Under the pieces are notes generated by a model. It ran no database searches and was not told where the DNA came from. It saw only the letters and a list, made by a program, of their open reading frames with translations. This document shows positions 214 through 7,369 of a DNA stretch of 64,000 nucleotides, piece after piece. The translations under genes and the position numbers were made by a program. Location of the stretch: positions 1-64,000 of the forward strand of contig NZ_ATXP01000012.1 in NCBI RefSeq assembly GCF_000421745.1, given 5' to 3'. This stretch comes from Nesterenkonia alba DSM 19423 (GTDB taxonomy: Bacteria; Actinomycetota; Actinomycetes; Actinomycetales; Micrococcaceae). Within the stretch, counting starts at the first letter, position 1, and each line of letters begins with the position of its first letter.

Positions 214-503
214 GGGCCTTTAGCTCAGTTGGTAGAGCATCGGACTTCAATAGGAGCGCCTCAGCGGAAACGTTGGGGATGACACCACTCAAAGTCGGGG
301 AACCCTTCCTAGATCATCTAGATGGCAATCCCGAGCCAAGCCAGGATGAGGTCCTGGAAGGTGTAGAGACTGGACGGGTGGCACCTACGGCGCAAGCTAC
401 GGTGAAGGGACAGTCCAGACCACGAACGTCCCGTCGGGGCGGCGGCGAAAGCCGAAGTGGGAGGTTAATCCGCTGGTCGGGGGTTCGAGTCCCCCAGGGC
501 CCA
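214..503 (+). tRNA. tRNA-Lys(UUU) split by a group I intron
   Basis: The exons 214-247 and 465-503 join to a standard 73-nt tRNA. The acceptor stem is 214-220 with 496-502, the D stem 223-226 with 235-238, the anticodon stem 240-244 with 469-473 (first pair a U/C mismatch), the T stem 479-483 with 491-495, the T loop is TTCGAGT, and the discriminator is A503. The spliced anticodon loop reads CUUUUAA, giving anticodon UUU. CCA is not encoded (CCT follows). The intron lies between anticodon positions 34 and 35. Copies of the 3' half near 3050 and 3960 lack the intron and show the uninterrupted loop, which supports the exon boundaries. No intact second copy is in the window, so this could be an essential gene. 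Confidence 0.9.
248..464 (+). ncRNA. Group I intron (IC3-like) in tRNA-Lys anticodon loop
   Basis: The 217-nt insert shows a full group I core. P1 is exon C245-U246-U247 with guide G254-A255-G256, ending in the expected U-G wobble. P2 is 259-266/271-278 with a GAAA loop. P3 is 282-286/360-364. P4 is 295-300/329-334, flanked by the AA joining bases. The P5 hairpin is 309-321, P6 341-346/352-357, P7 368-372/411-415 (the guanosine-binding helix), P8 382-385/401-404, and P9 443-454 with a GAAA loop. The terminal omega-G is G464. The blocks GGTGTAGAGACTGGACGG and GGTGAAGGGACAGTCCAG closely match the Azoarcus tRNA-Ile intron as I remember it. It has no open reading frame and should self-splice without a maturase or homing enzyme. 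Confidence 0.9.
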
Positions 504-1824: not shown

Positions 1825-2214
1825 ATGACAACTACCGCATCTCCGAGCATGCCGTACTACCTGGACTCTGTGCGGCTCAGTGAAGCTGAGCTGATAGCCC
1901 ACCTGTCTAAGCAGCTTGGTGCGAAGCTGGTGGCCTATATCGGAGGCGTGCGGGAGACGCGGGCAGTCCGGCAATGGGCTGAAGGATCCCGTCGGCCCTC
2001 CTCCGACGCAGTAGTGCGTCTCCGCTTGGCTTTCCAAGCGGCCGGAATGATTGCAGATGCAGGTAATGCTCCCAGCGTGGTTCAGGCGTGGTTCCAAGGG
2101 ATGAATCCCCAGCTGGAAGATCGTTCACCCGCGCGTGTAATCCGTGAAGGGGATCCCCACGCCGTTGGGCCGGAGGTTCTGGCCGCTGCCCGCGCTTTCG
2201 CGCGCATCGGATGA
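1825..2214 (+). CDS. Xre/MbcA/ParS-type antitoxin of RES system
   Basis: A 129-residue protein with the layout of the antitoxin that partners RES toxins: a degenerate helix-turn-helix in the first half (VRQWAEGSRRPSS as recognition region) and a short C-terminal Xre/MbcA/ParS toxin-binding part. It overlaps the next gene by 4 nt (ATGA), as normal for the pair. It should neutralise the toxin and repress the operon by binding its own promoter. Confidence 0.75.
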   Translation: MTTTASPSMPYYLDSVRLSEAELIAHLSKQLGAKLVAYIGGVRETRAVRQWAEGSRRPSSDAVVRLRLAFQAAGMIADAGNAPSVVQAWFQGMNPQLEDRSPARVIREGDPHAVGPEVLAAARAFARIG

Positions 2215-2918
2215 AACTCCGTGCGCTAAAGCGCCAGCAAATCTGGCGCGTGGGCTACGTTCCGGAACCGTGGTCGTGGCCCGACTGGCGATGGGCTGGC
2301 ACTTCGGGGCGGTTCTCCGGCCGCTGGGATGCGCTGGATGCCGGTCTCTACAGGACTCTATATGTCGGTGATTCTCTGTTGGCATGCCTGGTTGAAGTGC
2401 TCGCACCGTTCCGCCCTGATCCCACCTTGAATCACGAGCTAGATGCCATCGTTGATAACGATGAAGAGTCGCAGATGGGTGCACAGCCCGGAGTGCTGGA
2501 TCTTGATGCGTGGTTGGCGCCCAGGCAGGCATCCACGGCACAGCTCACCGGAACATTCTGCGATGTCACCGATGCTGAGACCATCGCCTCTCTGTTTTCC
2601 CGCTTCAAGCCACGCGCTGCGACTTATGGACTACCTGACTTTGATGCTGCTGCGCTGAAGACCGCAGAGCCGCGATTATTGACCCAGGAGGTGTCCCAAT
2701 ATCTGTGGGAAGCCAAGACTGAGAGCGGCACCGATCTATGTGATGGCATCGAGTTCCGGTCGCGCCATGGGGACAACTTCACCCTCTGGGCCATCTATGA
2801 GCGTCCTGGCGATCCAGAAATCACTCCACATGTCACCGATCTCCAGACTGTGGGACTGAACAGAGAGACTCCAGAGCTCCAATCAGCAACTCACCTGCTG
2901 GGGATAACCCTGCACTGA
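2211..2918 (+). CDS. RES-domain toxin (probable NAD-degrading)
   Basis: A 235-residue protein with the RES signature: Arg13 in IWRVG, Arg38 in GRFSGRW, Tyr51 and Ser55 in LYVGDS, and Glu62 in the following helix. The C-terminal half ends in a GIEFRSRHGDNFTLWAIYE block typical of the fold. Characterised members such as MbcT degrade NAD+ when freed from their antitoxin; that activity is inferred here. It is translationally coupled to the antitoxin gene and complete. The whole pair lies between the split tRNA-Lys and the first partial tRNA copy. Confidence 0.8.
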   Translation: MKLRALKRQQIWRVGYVPEPWSWPDWRWAGTSGRFSGRWDALDAGLYRTLYVGDSLLACLVEVLAPFRPDPTLNHELDAIVDNDEESQMGAQPGVLDLDAWLAPRQASTAQLTGTFCDVTDAETIASLFSRFKPRAATYGLPDFDAAALKTAEPRLLTQEVSQYLWEAKTESGTDLCDGIEFRSRHGDNFTLWAIYERPGDPEITPHVTDLQTVGLNRETPELQSATHLLGITLH

Positions 2919-2934
2919 TTTTGATGGCCATTTT

Positions 2935-3091
2935 GCTCCACACCCACCGACTCCGGCCGACGTCTACCGACATGCCAAATCGCAAAACCGCAGGTCAGGG
3001 GACATCGACCGACGTCCACCGACACCGACAGACTCGAATCAGTGGAACTTTTAATCCGCTGGTCGCGGGTTCGATCCCCGCAGGGCCCACC
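2935..3091 (+). repeat. Partial tRNA-Lys copy with flank (att-like, copy 1)
   Basis: Bases 3048-3091 repeat the anticodon loop to 3' end of tRNA-Lys (CTTTTAATCCGC, variable loop, T arm GCGGG-TTCGATC-CCCGC, AGGGCCCACC). The T-stem bases differ from the split gene but still pair. There is no D arm or 5' acceptor strand, so this is not a tRNA gene. The preceding ~110 bases contain short GACC/CACCGAC repeats that resemble integrase arm sites and recur before copy 2. A 12-base unit GCAGGGCCCACC is tandemly doubled at the right end. It is best read as the distal attachment site of an element integrated at tRNA-Lys. Confidence 0.7.
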
Positions 3092-3169: not shown

Positions 3170-3421
3170 ATGAAGACGATCTCAGTAGGCGATTTGCGTC
3201 AGAATCCTACTCGGATGCTCGATGACGTCGAGTCTGGTGAAGTGTATGTGCTGACCAGGCACAATCGTGAGGTTGCTCGAATCGTCCCATCGGAATCCTC
3301 CGCCCGTGTGATCCCACCGAAACGGACCGGACGCCCCCGAGTCCGCTTCCTGCCGCGAGTCGAACTTCCGGACGAAATGACCATGGATGAGCTTCTGGAA
3401 GAGCTGAAAGGCGAGTGGTGA
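3170..3421 (+). CDS. Phd/YefM-family antitoxin
   Basis: An 83-residue protein beginning MKTISVGDLRQNP, the DNA-binding dimerisation start of Phd/YefM antitoxins, with the usual VLTRHNREVARIVP strand pair and a C-terminal acidic helix (MTMDELLEELKGEW) that would wrap the toxin. TAACCT ends 6 nt before the ATG with no ribosome-binding site, so the message is probably leaderless. It overlaps the toxin gene. As in other families of this type it should repress its own promoter in the 3130-3169 region. Confidence 0.85.
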   Translation: MKTISVGDLRQNPTRMLDDVESGEVYVLTRHNREVARIVPSESSARVIPPKRTGRPRVRFLPRVELPDEMTMDELLEELKGEW

Positions 3422-3834
3422 CGTCCTACTACCTGGACACCTCAGTCGCTCTCCGGATTCTCCTCGGAGATTCTCCAGCGGCTGCTCTCTGGTTTGAAGA
3501 TGCTGTGGAATCCCCTGCTGACTCGGTTATCTCCTCACGAGTCCTGCGCACGGAGATGACCCGGGCCTTGCGCCGCCTGCGACAACCCATTGATCGCAGG
3601 TCTCAGATTCTCGACTTCGTCGGGCTGGTGCCACTGGACCATGCCATGCTTCAGGAGGCGGAAGCGATCGTTCCGCACATCAAGACTCTTGATGCCATTC
3701 ATCTTGCCTCTGCTCTGCGCAGCGGCGTTGAGGACCTTGTCATCGCGACGCATGACAGAAACATGAGATCCATAGCGGAGGAACTCGGTTTTGAAATCCT
3801 CGACCCCGTCACCGACGACGCCGTGCAGGATTAG
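3418..3834 (+). CDS. PIN-domain (VapC-type) ribonuclease toxin
   Basis: About 138 residues with the PIN fold: the first acidic residue in YYLDTS, Glu in LRTEMTRAL, Asp in KTLDAIHLASAL and Asp in ATHDRNM form the Mg2+ site of a VapC-like RNase. GTG at 3418 overlaps the antitoxin stop as GTGA; GTG at 3415 is also possible. Together with the upstream gene it forms a type II toxin-antitoxin pair, the only cargo between partial tRNA-Lys copies 1 and 2. Confidence 0.85.
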   Translation: MTSYYLDTSVALRILLGDSPAAALWFEDAVESPADSVISSRVLRTEMTRALRRLRQPIDRRSQILDFVGLVPLDHAMLQEAEAIVPHIKTLDAIHLASALRSGVEDLVIATHDRNMRSIAEELGFEILDPVTDDAVQD

Positions 3835-3895: not shown

Positions 3896-4000
3896 CGCTC
3901 CACATCCACAGCCTCCGGCCGACACCCACCGACGCCCACAGACTCTGCTCACTGGAACTATTAATCCGCTGGTCGGGGGGCGAGTCCCCCAGGGCTCACC
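3896..4000 (+). repeat. Partial tRNA-Lys copy with flank (att-like, copy 2)
   Basis: Bases 3958-4000 repeat the tRNA-Lys 3' half (CTATTAATCCGCTGGTCGG to GGGCTCACC). Changes in the anticodon (UUU to AUU) and a damaged T loop (GGGGGGCGAGT) show it is not a gene. The left flank matches the flank of copy 1 (CTCCGGCCGAC, the CACCGAC units, and GACTC then TGGAAC just before the repeat). It marks the outer end of a second, smaller islet carrying the Phd/PIN pair. Confidence 0.65.
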
Positions 4001-4041: not shown

Positions 4042-4548
4042 TCAATCGGGGAGGTTCTTTTCGAAGAGGGTGACGGGCCGCCAGCCCAGCTCGGGCGGGA
4101 ACTCGTGCGTGCCTACTTCGGTGTAACCTCGGGCTCGGTAATAGCTGCGCAGTGTTTCGTTGGATGCCACACAGTCGAGGCGTGCGAGTGTGTGTCCTCG
4201 TTCGGCGATCAGCGATTCGGCGGCGCTGAGCACCCGACGGCCCAGTTCTTGGCCGGTATAAGCACGAGCGACCATGAGGCCATGGATATAACCGGCCGGC
4301 GCTGTGTCCGAATCTCGCCAGATGTCCGGGTCGGCGTCGAGAATGCGCACTGCAGCCGCCACCTGGCCGCTGTCTCGTACTAGGTGCCACTCTTGGCGGG
4401 AAACCTGCTCCTCAAAATCCGCCGATGTGGTCTCGCCAGGAGACCACTGGATAATCCCCGCGCTTTCTTGCCAGTGGGCCAACTCTTCCCGCAATGCATG
4501 AAGGGCTCGGGCGTCCTCGAGGTGGGCATGTTGCAGCATCATGACCAT
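4042..4548 (-). CDS. GNAT-family N-acetyltransferase
   Basis: A 168-residue single-domain acetyltransferase. The acetyl-CoA loop is in YTGQELGRRVLSAAES (Q/R-x-x-G-x-G/A type), preceded by the IHGLMVAR strand. The C-terminal strands end WRPVTLFEKNL. The substrate is unknown. It overlaps the upstream RelE gene by 10 nt and is co-transcribed with it. A near copy of its last ~20 codons lies upstream of RelE, so a duplication affected this locus. The pairing suggests a possible toxin-associated role but could be chance. Confidence 0.75.
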   Translation of the reverse strand: MVMMLQHAHLEDARALHALREELAHWQESAGIIQWSPGETTSADFEEQVSRQEWHLVRDSGQVAAAVRILDADPDIWRDSDTAPAGYIHGLMVARAYTGQELGRRVLSAAESLIAERGHTLARLDCVASNETLRSYYRARGYTEVGTHEFPPELGWRPVTLFEKNLPD

Positions 4549-4841
4549 TCTGCCCTGTATTGAAGATTCGATTTCAAGCGCCGAGGAGGGCCAGTGGTAC
4601 GACGGTGCCCAAGATCTAGAGCCACGATGACCAGCTTTTCGTCCTGGATGTCACAGACGATGCGGTAGTCCCCCACTCGGTAGCGCCAATGACCGGCGAG
4701 ATTTCCCGTCAGAGCTTTACCCCTGGCGCGAGGATCATCCAAGGAGGCCACCGCACGCAGTGCGGAGCGTAGGCGGCGGGCTACCTGCGGGTCGAGCTTC
4801 CGGAGCTCCGTGGGCAGGTCTACTGTCATCCGGTCCTGCAT
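4539..4841 (-). CDS. RelE/ParE-family toxin without visible antitoxin
   Basis: 100 residues. LTGNLAGHWRYRVGDYRIVC and the following VIVALDLGHRR are the diagnostic RelE central and C-terminal strands with their basic residues. The usual first strand (V-x-W/F-x-x-A) is replaced by MQDRMTVDLPTEL, so the N terminus may be altered. No RelB/Phd-like gene lies upstream or downstream; upstream is only a 3' remnant of a GNAT gene whose stop overlaps this ATG (TGATG). It may be an orphan, a weakened toxin, or controlled by the coupled GNAT gene. Confidence 0.7.
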   Translation of the reverse strand: MQDRMTVDLPTELRKLDPQVARRLRSALRAVASLDDPRARGKALTGNLAGHWRYRVGDYRIVCDIQDEKLVIVALDLGHRRTTGPPRRLKSNLQYRAEWS

Positions 4842-4925
4842 CAGCCCTGTTCTGCTCCGTTGTCTCTGGTTCGCTCTGAGACAGTGAGGTTCTTCTCGAA
4901 GCGGGTGACGGGATGCCAGATATGG
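4841..4925 (-). pseudogene. 3' remnant of a second GNAT gene
   Basis: Read on the minus strand this gives IWHPVTRFEKNL and then TVSERTRDNGAEQG before a stop. The first part matches the end of the complete GNAT gene (WRPVTLFEKNL) at both DNA and protein level. The remnant stop codon overlaps the RelE start, so ancestrally a GNAT gene sat directly upstream of RelE as well as downstream. Confidence 0.55.
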
Positions 4926-4943
4926 GGTGCATAAGCTGGGAGT

Positions 4944-5630
4944 ATGACCTCAGCGAGCTATACCGTTCTGGTGCCGGGCGTGCGGGTTACGGCTGAGGTC
5001 GAACGGAAAAAGTCCCGGTTTCTAGCCGTCTTGCAGCGCGCAGAGTCGACCCAGGTGGCGCAAAACCTGGTGGACGAGCTGCGCCGGGAGCACCACACCG
5101 CCCGGCGCCACTGCAGCGCCTGGGTCATCGGCCCTGATCGAAGAGTCCAACGAGCCAACGACGACGGCGAGCCCTCCGGAACAGCAGGAGCTCCCATGCT
5201 GGAGGCATTGACTAAAGCCGATATGCCCTCCGGTGAGCACAACCTGTCCGACGTCGCCGTCGTCGTCGTGCGATGGTTCGGCGGGACTCTGCTGGGGGCC
5301 GGGGGTCTGGTGAGCGCCTATTCCGACTCGGTGCTGGCCGCACTGGATGAAGCCGCAGCGCACCGCATGTTCCGTCAACGCCAACGGCTGATGCTATTCA
5401 CCCTGGAGGTGCCGTTCGCTGAAGCCGGACGGTGGGAGAACGAACTGCGGGCAGCCGGCGCCCAGGTGCCCGGGACTGACTACACCGCAGTACCCGGGGC
5501 TGCGCAGATGCGACTGGCGGTGGAAGATTCCGTGGAAGCCGTCGAGGCGCTCGCCAGTCGGGTGGCTGCACTGACTCGAGGCCGTCAGGAACTCACTGCT
5601 GTGGGCCACCAGTGGGTCGACCGGGAATGA
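4944..5630 (+). CDS. yigZ: YigZ/IMPACT family protein
   Basis: 228 residues, full length for the family. The N-terminal IMPACT domain carries EVERKKSRFLAVL, the AWVIG strand, NDDGEPSGTAG and the glycine-rich VVVVRWFGGTLLGAGGLVSAY motif. The C-terminal ferredoxin-like domain (DUF1949) follows from about residue 140. The family is linked to translation regulation in eukaryotes; its bacterial role is unclear. TAAGCT lies 6 nt before the ATG, suggesting a leaderless transcript. Confidence 0.88.
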   Translation: MTSASYTVLVPGVRVTAEVERKKSRFLAVLQRAESTQVAQNLVDELRREHHTARRHCSAWVIGPDRRVQRANDDGEPSGTAGAPMLEALTKADMPSGEHNLSDVAVVVVRWFGGTLLGAGGLVSAYSDSVLAALDEAAAHRMFRQRQRLMLFTLEVPFAEAGRWENELRAAGAQVPGTDYTAVPGAAQMRLAVEDSVEAVEALASRVAALTRGRQELTAVGHQWVDRE

Positions 5631-5656: not shown

Positions 5657-7369
5657 TCAGTCTTCCAGCTTCAGGCCGCGGTAGCGGTTCACCGCCGCAT
5701 GGAGCTCGTGCGGCCGAGGTCGGGTCAGGTGCCCGGGATGGCCCCGATGCCCGGAGAGAACATCCAAGCCTTCTGCGTCGATGCGGGCAATAAGCTCCGC
5801 CACCGCCTCTGCGATGCTCACCCGGCCCTCCACCCGCTCTGCCAGACGGTCCAGGGCCCGGGCGATCGCCTGGGTCTGATCGGGATCCACCAGCTGGGCG
5901 ACAGCGGCCAGATCAATGGTCTGGCGACCATAGTGAATCGTGGTGCGCCCGCGGGCTTTGGCCGGCTTGGTCTTCCCCGCCGGGTTCAATGAGTCGGGCT
6001 GAAGAACCCTGGGCGTGGTCGCAGAGAACACTGCCGACTGCGGAGCATCCGGCCCGCCGCCGGCAAGCTCGCGAGCCTTCTGGGTCACATCCAGCGCAGT
6101 ATAGGCATCCAAAGCGAGGACGGTATCAGCGACATCGAAGAACGCACCCGAACCTCCGGCCACCAGCACAGTGGAGACCCCGCGTTCGCTATACAGCGGG
6201 CGAACCCGGTCCACGAACGGAGTGATCGGCTCCCGATCAGCGGGAATGAGCTGCCGCATCCGCTCGTCCCGGATCATGAAGTTAGTCGCTGAGGTGTCCT
6301 CATCGATCAGCAGAGCCGAGGCGCCGGCGTCGAGCGCTTCCACCAGGTTGGCCGCCTGGGAGGTCGAACCGGAAGCGTTCGTGGTGGAAAACCGACGAGT
6401 ATCCGCCCCGGAGGGTAAACCGCTGATGAACGCAGAGATATCCACTCCCGTGACCGCCCGGGCATCCTCAGCACGAACCGAGACCGCATCGGCGCGAGTG
6501 ATGACCCACTCACGTCCATCCCCGGCCACATGGGCATACACGCCACGTTCGATCCCCCGCAGCAGCGTGGATTTCCCGTGATACCCACCACCGACGATCA
6601 CGGTAATACCCTCCGGCACTCCCATGCCGGTCACCGTGCCTCCGCTGGGCAGGGTGAACGAGACCCGCAGCGACTCCGGTGACGTAAACGGCACCGGCTC
6701 GTCTCCACCAGCCCCCGCGCTCATCGGCAGGTCAGAGTCACCGGATCTGCGGGGAAGAATTGCCCCATCACCGACGAATGCCACCAGGCCGGCCTCAGCC
6801 AGCTGTCCGCGCAGGTGCTCCTGATCCCGGTACAGCGTGACATGCTCTTCCAACGCTGAGGCATCCAGGTGACGGTGGAACAGGCTCTTCTCCGCCACCT
6901 GGGGCAGAACATCGGTCAGCAGCGCAGCGGCCTGCTTCCCACGGGCTTTCCGTCCCGAAGCGGGGAGCCCGACGACGATCCGCGCCTCCACGCGATCCTG
7001 ACTGATGAGTACTGTGGTCCGCTCGAGTACCTGCTGGCCCGGCCGGCCAATGCTCACACTGCCGGAGTTCCCCGTTCCCGAGGAGGACGGGGTCAGTGCT
7101 GCCGCCTGCTCGGCAAACCGTCGAGTGAGGAAATCCGCAGTGGCCACACGTCCCAGATGGTCATCGGTTAGTTCCGGGGGCAACCCGGCCTCTGCCCGGG
7201 GCACGCTGATCCGCATCAACGACGGCGGGGCGAACGGGTCCGTCTGGACATGATCGACGTGCAGAGTCATCACCCCGAGCCGGTACTGCCCCCGGATCTG
7301 CCGATACGAGGCGTAACCCCGCCCGTCGAGCCCACTCAGGGTGCGTTGTAACTGCGCACCGTAACGCAC
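5657..7369 (-). CDS. Predicted ABC-class ATPase (ABC_ATPase family)
   Basis: About 570 residues, soluble, no membrane segment. The order fits the predicted ATPase of the ABC class: an N-terminal YRQIRGQY domain, phosphate-binding GGGYHGKST around residue 265, a SALLIDEDTSATNF Walker B region around 355, then a VAGGSGAFFDVAD block and a helical C terminus. The GTG at 7369 is chosen because AAGGAG lies 10 nt upstream; GTG at 7378 is too close to it. The biological role of the family is not established. It stands alone after the downstream-transcribed hydrolase pair. Confidence 0.75.
   Translation of the reverse strand: MRYGAQLQRTLSGLDGRGYASYRQIRGQYRLGVMTLHVDHVQTDPFAPPSLMRISVPRAEAGLPPELTDDHLGRVATADFLTRRFAEQAAALTPSSSGTGNSGSVSIGRPGQQVLERTTVLISQDRVEARIVVGLPASGRKARGKQAAALLTDVLPQVAEKSLFHRHLDASALEEHVTLYRDQEHLRGQLAEAGLVAFVGDGAILPRRSGDSDLPMSAGAGGDEPVPFTSPESLRVSFTLPSGGTVTGMGVPEGITVIVGGGYHGKSTLLRGIERGVYAHVAGDGREWVITRADAVSVRAEDARAVTGVDISAFISGLPSGADTRRFSTTNASGSTSQAANLVEALDAGASALLIDEDTSATNFMIRDERMRQLIPADREPITPFVDRVRPLYSERGVSTVLVAGGSGAFFDVADTVLALDAYTALDVTQKARELAGGGPDAPQSAVFSATTPRVLQPDSLNPAGKTKPAKARGRTTIHYGRQTIDLAAVAQLVDPDQTQAIARALDRLAERVEGRVSIAEAVAELIARIDAEGLDVLSGHRGHPGHLTRPRPHELHAAVNRYRGLKLED

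Follow-up and report, generated by a model that had tools for sequence, protein, structure and literature searches.

How does an actinobacterium read AAA codons when the only tRNA-Lys(UUU) gene that can be found in its genome is interrupted inside the anticodon? The gene lies at 214-503 of the window, the 64,000-nucleotide stretch analysed here (positions 1-64000 of contig C12 of a 2.59 Mb Nesterenkonia genome, labelled G000), and AAA is in use (75 AAA vs 226 AAG codons in 36 script-called window genes). We consider it well supported that a group I intron sits in the only tRNA-Lys(UUU) gene found, and that this gene is carried on a phage-like element that splits the native one.

The 5′ exon (214..247; tRNA positions 1-34) is identical in all eight aligned Nesterenkonia copies, and is followed by a 217-nt intron (248..464) whose last base is omega-G464 and by the 3′ exon (465..503), after which comes CC, the CCA end being only partly encoded; all features given here for the window are on the forward strand. 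These borders are those originally predicted, and ARAGORN called the joined exons tRNA-Lys(ttt). Because the intron follows U34, one base past U33 as had been proposed, it lies inside the anticodon (U34^U35U36). Plain ARAGORN missed the interrupted gene at 214-503; its intron mode returned a gene of the right span, with a 217-nt intron at position 34 or a 199-nt intron at position 36 depending on the setting, and mislabelled the isotype as Asn or SeC. T-stem changes between the Nesterenkonia intron-tRNA copies are compensated.

All of the elements expected of a group I intron could be placed: a P3-P7 core with P4-P6 and P8, a U.G splice pair and a terminal omega-G. P1 (245..256), drawn from the sequence, pairs C245-U246-U247 with the guide G254-A255-G256 and sets U247.G254 at the 5′ splice site; ATAGGAGCGC of the P1 region is invariant in our intron alignment A2. 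P2 (259..278) has 8 bp and a GAAA loop, with two-sided changes in five of its eight pairs. P3 (285-290/376-381, spanning 285..381) encloses P4 (295-300/329-334), P5 with its extension, P6 and P6a, and is crossed by P7 (368-372/411-415, spanning 368..415), with P8 at 382-404. P9 (420-423/457-460, spanning 420..460) holds two inner hairpins, one with a GAAA loop, which vary among the aligned introns with compensated changes. The intron may belong to the Azoarcus-like subgroup IC3.

Helices P2-P9 were set by hand from the window intron and then counted on 42 introns over 61 pairs; P1 was left out of the count, since in some rows MAFFT had put the 5′ exon in the wrong place. Paired cells amounted to 98.0% against a shuffle mean of 92.2, two-sided changes to 25 pairs against a shuffle mean of 12.9, and covariation to 0.193 against 0.080, and none of 500 shuffles reached the observed values on any of five measures; sliding the partners lowered pairing to 24-45%. 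The support is uneven among helices: the P8 tip, a small helix, was paired in only 78.6% of cells, one P3 pair (G-C for C-G) and one P8 pair changed on both sides in a single sequence, that of Gordonia phage Daredevil (L162), two P7 pairs showed two-sided changes (one in L158, one in L162), and P4, P6 and the P9 stem are invariant and so carry no covariation information. The terminal omega-G, seen as a G before TTAATCC, is present in 42 of 42 rows. Thus the predicted core helices P2-P9 are kept across the aligned introns, with P1 outside the count.

The covariance search (cmscan, RF00028) aligned 238-438 to all 253 model positions with an E value of 2.3e-6, but its 32 bits did not reach the gathering score of 50 bits, which is a curated threshold and not a structural feature; two Microbacterium copies scored 31.6 and 35.5 bits. 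The energy fold of 210-510 was unremarkable (z −1.04), and such folding has no pseudoknots and cannot show a P3/P7 core. On this comparative evidence, 248-464 is a real group I intron in tRNA-Lys(UUU); self-splicing itself is inferred, there being no RNA data.

A DNA pattern scan returned 38 stretches with the same intron, all 38 in tRNA-Lys and at the same site (22 labelled Microbacterium, five Nesterenkonia, and the remainder Tsukamurella, Mycobacterium, Prauserella, Phytoactinopolyspora and metagenome bins). This survey of related genera, together with RF00028 and covariation, bears out the claim of a group I intron in actinobacterial tRNA-Lys(UUU). Within Microbacterium, 33 of 366 genomes carry the intron in tRNA-Lys. 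The pattern scan did better than RF00028, which over 396 genomes of the order found only three, fewer than the known carriers, its strict filters losing weak matches.

We searched 30 Nesterenkonia genomes for tRNA-Lys(UUU) with the joined exons as query. An uninterrupted full-length gene of at least 89% identity was present in 21 genomes; seven others (G000, G001, G002, G004, G006, G012 and G014) had the intron copy without any uninterrupted tRNA-Lys(UUU), and in two incomplete genomes (G007 and G025) neither was found, G025 giving a lone 3′-half match in one search and none in another. The window genome has 46 Rfam tRNA matches, of which 41 could be typed, with a single tRNA-Lys among them (anticodon CTT); four of the untyped matches are 84-89 nt long, and one further match (29 bits) is the broken native gene. 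G012 gave a similar picture, with 38 of 46 tRNA matches typed, Lys(CTT) only, and eight untyped matches of 82-89 nt. The intron copy is the only tRNA-Lys(UUU) gene found in G000, the untyped 84-89 nt matches remaining. Another intact tRNA-Lys(UUU) gene would have counted against the original prediction; none was found in the genome, and the idea that the interrupted gene is a spare second copy was rejected on the same ground.

The native gene survives in pieces. Of the seven intron genomes, five (G000, G001, G002, G004 and G006) have lone 5′ halves, and the same five also have lone 3′ halves; G012 and G014 have intron copies but no lone halves were found there, so that the split is established for five of seven only. 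The 5′ halves end ..GGACTTTTAATCCGCTTGC.. and run into non-tRNA sequence that is similar across the five genomes, weakest in G000, and the 3′ halves start with the same core. The sequence common to both junctions, CTTTTAATCCGCT, spans 13 bp in G001, G002, G004 and G006 and 14 in G000, and the native tRNA-Lys is rebuilt at neither junction in any of the five. The intron site is three bases into this shared att core, at CTT^TTAATCCGCT. A D-loop base is missing from two of the 5′ halves (G001 and G002), a loss to be expected once a gene is dead.

Within the window, a lone tRNA-Lys 3′ half with an uninterrupted ACTTTTAATCCGCT (3047..3091) is read as the attR of the splitting element, and a second, decayed 3′ half (3957..4000) as a further attR scar; the matching 5′ half lies on contig C8, 4.3 kb off the contig end. 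That broken gene (G000:C8:114378-114455) still reaches 29.4 bits with the Rfam tRNA model, barely over the tRNA cut-off, and automatic annotation could therefore take it for a tRNA. A toxin-antitoxin-like ORF pair (1825..2918) encoding a 129-aa protein without Pfam hit and a RES-domain protein (RES, 2.8e-6) lies between the intron tRNA and the first attR, and a Phd/YefM antitoxin with a PIN toxin (3170..3834) lies between the two attR scars.

An intact relative supplies the counterpart of the split. The rpoB tree places G009 as the sister of G006, and its one-piece region corresponds to G006 contigs C51 and C62: C51 matches the 5′ half and 8 kb of left flank (86%), G006 having a further 3 kb between the two, and C62 matches the 3′ half and stretches of the right flank at 81-82%, the two tRNA matches overlapping by 16 bp. 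Judged by this alignment, G009 is an empty site for the G006 insertion. A comparison of G019 with G002 gave a clear left junction and an unresolved right flank. Ordinary tRNA-rebuilding elements leave a full tRNA gene plus an extra 3′ half as their trace, and G003 and G029 show this arrangement.

The intron-bearing gene travels with the insertion where linkage can be followed. In G002, a single contig carries on one strand the 5′ half, the intron tRNA 11 kb further on, and the 3′ halves; the 5′ half and the intron tRNA are linked over 80 kb in G001 and 34 kb in G004, and in G000 the 3′ halves lie 2.5 and 3.5 kb from the intron tRNA. The intron tRNA is thus on the inserted side in G000, G001 and G004, where contigs link; it is not linked in G006, and in G000 and G006 the native halves and the intron tRNA are not all on one contig. 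A tyrosine integrase gene lies within 9 kb of a junction in four of the five split genomes. In G001, the 16 kb next to the 5′-half junction encode this integrase (PF00589, 1.3e-17; phrog_1), a primase and a repressor-like protein; relatives of the integrase occur in G004 and G006 and a truncated relative in G002. In the part of G000 examined, no integrase was seen, only an excisionase-like gene. Among phages, Arthrobacter phage Karkharias has the integrase nearest to that of the element (44% identity), and no tRNA is annotated within the 8.3 kb surrounding its int; the Fionnbharth integrase is 33% identical. An Abi_2 protein of G001, with relatives at 94-98%, is encoded near the 3′ half in G001, G004 and G006, and a relative directly follows the intron tRNA in G002 and G014. 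A serine recombinase gene, checked against Pfam in G006, or a relative abuts the 3′ end of the intron tRNA in G001, G004 and G006, so that several elements overlap here and the tRNA-carrying element is inferred. A large serine recombinase gene, Pfam-tested, at L032:4925-6727 and a relative at L048:15478-17226 likewise overlap or abut tRNA-Lys 3′ ends, and probably mark another element using the same tRNA.

The intron state changes at least six times on an rpoB tree of 28 genomes (G005 and G016 were excluded for want of a usable rpoB), no better than shuffled labels, which indicates that it moves; a single ancestral event in one clade is unsupported by the same count. A 27-nt intron match in G013 had unrelated-looking surroundings and was dropped. 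The original prediction was correct about the intron, and missed both the phage-like insertion around it and the interruption of an att core.

An integrated state of this kind has a described counterpart in tRNA-dependent lysogeny (Guerrero-Bustamante and Hatfull, mBio 2024, PMC10865867). According to the parts of that paper available to us, the phage att core of 8-17 bp lies in a tRNA gene, most commonly tRNA-Lys-TTT, a tyrosine integrase acts without the host tRNA being rebuilt, and the phage carries the cognate tRNA; a 3-bp CTT overlap is suggested for the Fionnbharth integrase. The intron site of our gene falls directly after CTT, equal to this suggested overlap. In the same portions of the paper, Daredevil is an exception that integrates at tRNA-Lys-TTT without rebuilding and without a tRNA of its own, and forms clear plaques on Gordonia terrae, as predicted there; the word "intron" appears in the available text only in the reference list.

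We found that Daredevil matches our gene. When 50,697 phage records were searched by blastn with the window gene, five matched, of which two Daredevil records covered 92% of the query at 74% identity. The order in Daredevil (L162) is integrase (4073-5431, minus strand), CGGACTTTTAATCCGC (5829-5844) and, at about 5998-6310, a tRNA-Lys gene that carries the intron and is not annotated. Its joined exons are called tRNA-Lys(ttt), and its T arm is identical to the one in the tRNA-Lys annotated for the Fionnbharth-type phage Wintermute. The published exception is thereby corrected at the level of sequence: a candidate replacement tRNA stands beside attP, hidden by the same kind of intron and overlooked by plain tRNA finders. 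Clear plaques would not be expected of a working replacement, and it is doubtful that the Daredevil intron tRNA functions in G. terrae. Identity between the integrases of Daredevil and Nesterenkonia is only 25%, and int and tRNA lie on opposite sides of the core in the two; we infer that the layout of intron tRNA and int may have arisen twice.

Taken together, our best explanation runs as follows. A phage-like element would cut the native tRNA-Lys(UUU) at a 13-14 bp core in the anticodon loop without rebuilding it, and the intron-bearing copy on the element would supply the replacement tRNA, covering the loss as in tRNA-dependent lysogeny. The transcript would self-splice to a normal tRNA-Lys(UUU), as inferred from knowledge of the family and from the U.G site, the guide GAG and omega-G464. 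With the intron inside the att core, the replacement gene would be no target for its own or related integrases, an inference without experimental data. We put the probability of this explanation as a whole at about 0.8, with the split native gene and the intron copy as sole gene found being observed, and splicing and shielding inferred.

The strongest competing account concerns why the intron sits where it does. It holds that the intron is purely selfish and enters tRNA-Lys anticodon loops by HNH-assisted homing, the att-core site being coincidental since introns and integrases both favour the conserved anticodon loop, with no protection conferred. The single site in 38 of 38 stretches and the 33 of 366 Microbacterium genomes are what it would predict, and an HNH relative occurs within 1.2 kb downstream in 21 of the 38 intron stretches (19 of 22 labelled Microbacterium; two are short fragments, and not all stretches run far enough) and also close to the Daredevil copy (36% identity), against none near 20 intronless Microbacterium tRNA-Lys loci (mostly best-scoring hits, non-random). 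This suggests homing by a nuclease putatively encoded beside, not inside, the intron, for which there are no cleavage data. The HNH gene belongs to PHROG 2255, has no Pfam match, and follows the tRNA 3′ end in those of the stretches L124-L161 that have it. In Microbacterium G130, the intron-bearing gene keeps the leader of its intronless relatives (G662 and others), which places it at the native locus, and the intron therefore also occurs without such an element. Against the selfish account, no HNH relative was found beside any of eight tested Nesterenkonia copies, the window included (two of the stretches being shorter than 0.8 kb), and the att core matches the element's own replacement tRNA over a longer run where that tRNA has the intron (16 nt in Daredevil, 12 and 14 in two Nesterenkonia, all cut by the intron) than in intronless phages (7 in Wintermute, 7 in BrutonGaster and 11 in Cain). 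We regard this account as evenly poised.

Viral sequences also speak to the selfish account. The pattern that gave the 38 stretches found none on the viral contigs, because its word is altered in Daredevil; with a P6-P7 pattern, 85 stretches came up on these contigs, and 80 loci were examined. Relatives of four tRNA-targeting integrases turned up among these 80 viral loci in Daredevil only, its own, while related introns do occur in viral tRNA genes, both as selfish spread would have it. The isotype vote on viral loci was unreliable, missing the Lys of Daredevil, so we used only eight loci read by eye. Read in this way, viral contigs L264, L284, L291 and others have group I introns in tRNA genes, a few of them tRNA-Lys genes interrupted close to the site seen here. 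Also by eye, L167 (an uncultured phage of 595 kb) has a group I core followed by a tRNA-Leu-like 3′ exon, and an HNH-like reading frame lies just upstream.

The alternative account of the site is that the intron blocks integration, both into the element's replacement tRNA and into the native gene of hosts that carry the intron there. A shield against integrases is plausible: the insertion point lies within the att core, the joined exons match that core, genomes with a split native gene keep the intron copy whole, the longer core matches in intron-bearing tRNAs fit its prediction (six cases only), and the idea has been published for split tRNAs of archaea (Randau and Soell, cited in PMC4390854). 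Counts in Microbacterium do not settle it: two or more tRNA-Lys 3′ halves were seen in 22 of the 291 genomes without the intron and in 1 of the 33 with it, too few to tell (42 of 366 genomes gave no match, and two first-look candidates were scored per genome). The serine recombinase gene abutting the intron tRNA 3′ end in G006 argues against a general shield, as the intron seems not to stop elements that use the 3′ end. That blocking extends to both replacement and native genes is possible, and falls short of even odds. The fullest version, in which a ribozyme placed exactly in the att core makes the replacement tRNA of a temperate element invisible to integrases, the host becomes dependent on that element, and the HNH-spread intron immunises hosts, we offer only tentatively, with more doubt still. 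That the intron copy is a dead, degenerate pseudogene with AAA codons read by an unseen tRNA has next to nothing left in its favour, since the absence of expression data and the clear plaques of Daredevil (in the available part of PMC10865867) are set against compensated T-stem changes between copies, an invariant 5′ exon, maintained intron helices and no other candidate among the typed tRNAs.

If the shielding part of our explanation is true, the intron marks self from target, and introns in native genes protect against tRNA-Lys-targeting phages. The case brings together tRNA group I introns and tRNA-dependent lysogeny, both already known, and offers a concrete natural case for the proposal that interrupted tRNA genes escape integration. 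There is also a warning: under standard tRNA annotation, genomes of this kind will seem to lack an essential tRNA.

Group I introns are hosted by bacterial tRNA-Leu and tRNA-Arg genes. They are also described, in the part of PMC8450103 available, in tRNA-fMet of cyanobacteria and tRNA-Ile2 of Acidovorax and Burkholderia. Our intron resembles the known bacterial tRNA introns as an ORF-less ribozyme in the anticodon loop with a U.G splice site and omega-G, and differs from them in lying in tRNA-Lys between positions 34 and 35, in having actinobacteria and their phage as hosts, and in the HNH gene standing outside both intron and tRNA. No report of such a tRNA-Lys intron was found among the literature listings (open-licence papers only; Rfam seeds and intron databases were outside the search). 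A 49-nt "group I intron" is reported in cyanobacterial tRNA-Lys in the accessible text of PMC5733544; 49 nt cannot hold a group I core, and from that text we take it to be something else. A tRNA-Leu-like gene on plasmids has a related intron, the best matches being 72-74% identical in DNA across the intron core; its core is related to ours, and its tRNA and hosts differ from those of Nesterenkonia. Plasmid matches to the query came from 1273 records (Escherichia, Klebsiella, Acinetobacter and others), and in the three inspected (H1, H2 and H20; L164, L165 and L163) the tRNA-Leu-like intron gene lies near aac(3)-IId.

With tRNA-dependent lysogeny, the Nesterenkonia case shares the short att core, the unrebuilt tRNA, the tyrosine integrase and the element-borne cognate tRNA; it differs in that the replacement tRNA has a group I intron, and in that the state is chromosomal with islands partly eroded. 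The Nesterenkonia state thus resembles tRNA-dependent lysogeny in its apparent gene arrangement, a functional phage not having been shown. Disrupted archaeal tRNA genes have been proposed as protection from integration (Randau and Soell 2008, known here through its citation in the available text of PMC4390854). As in that proposal, an interruption in a tRNA gene would remove an integration target; unlike there, the attacked gene and the interrupted copy of Nesterenkonia share one genome.
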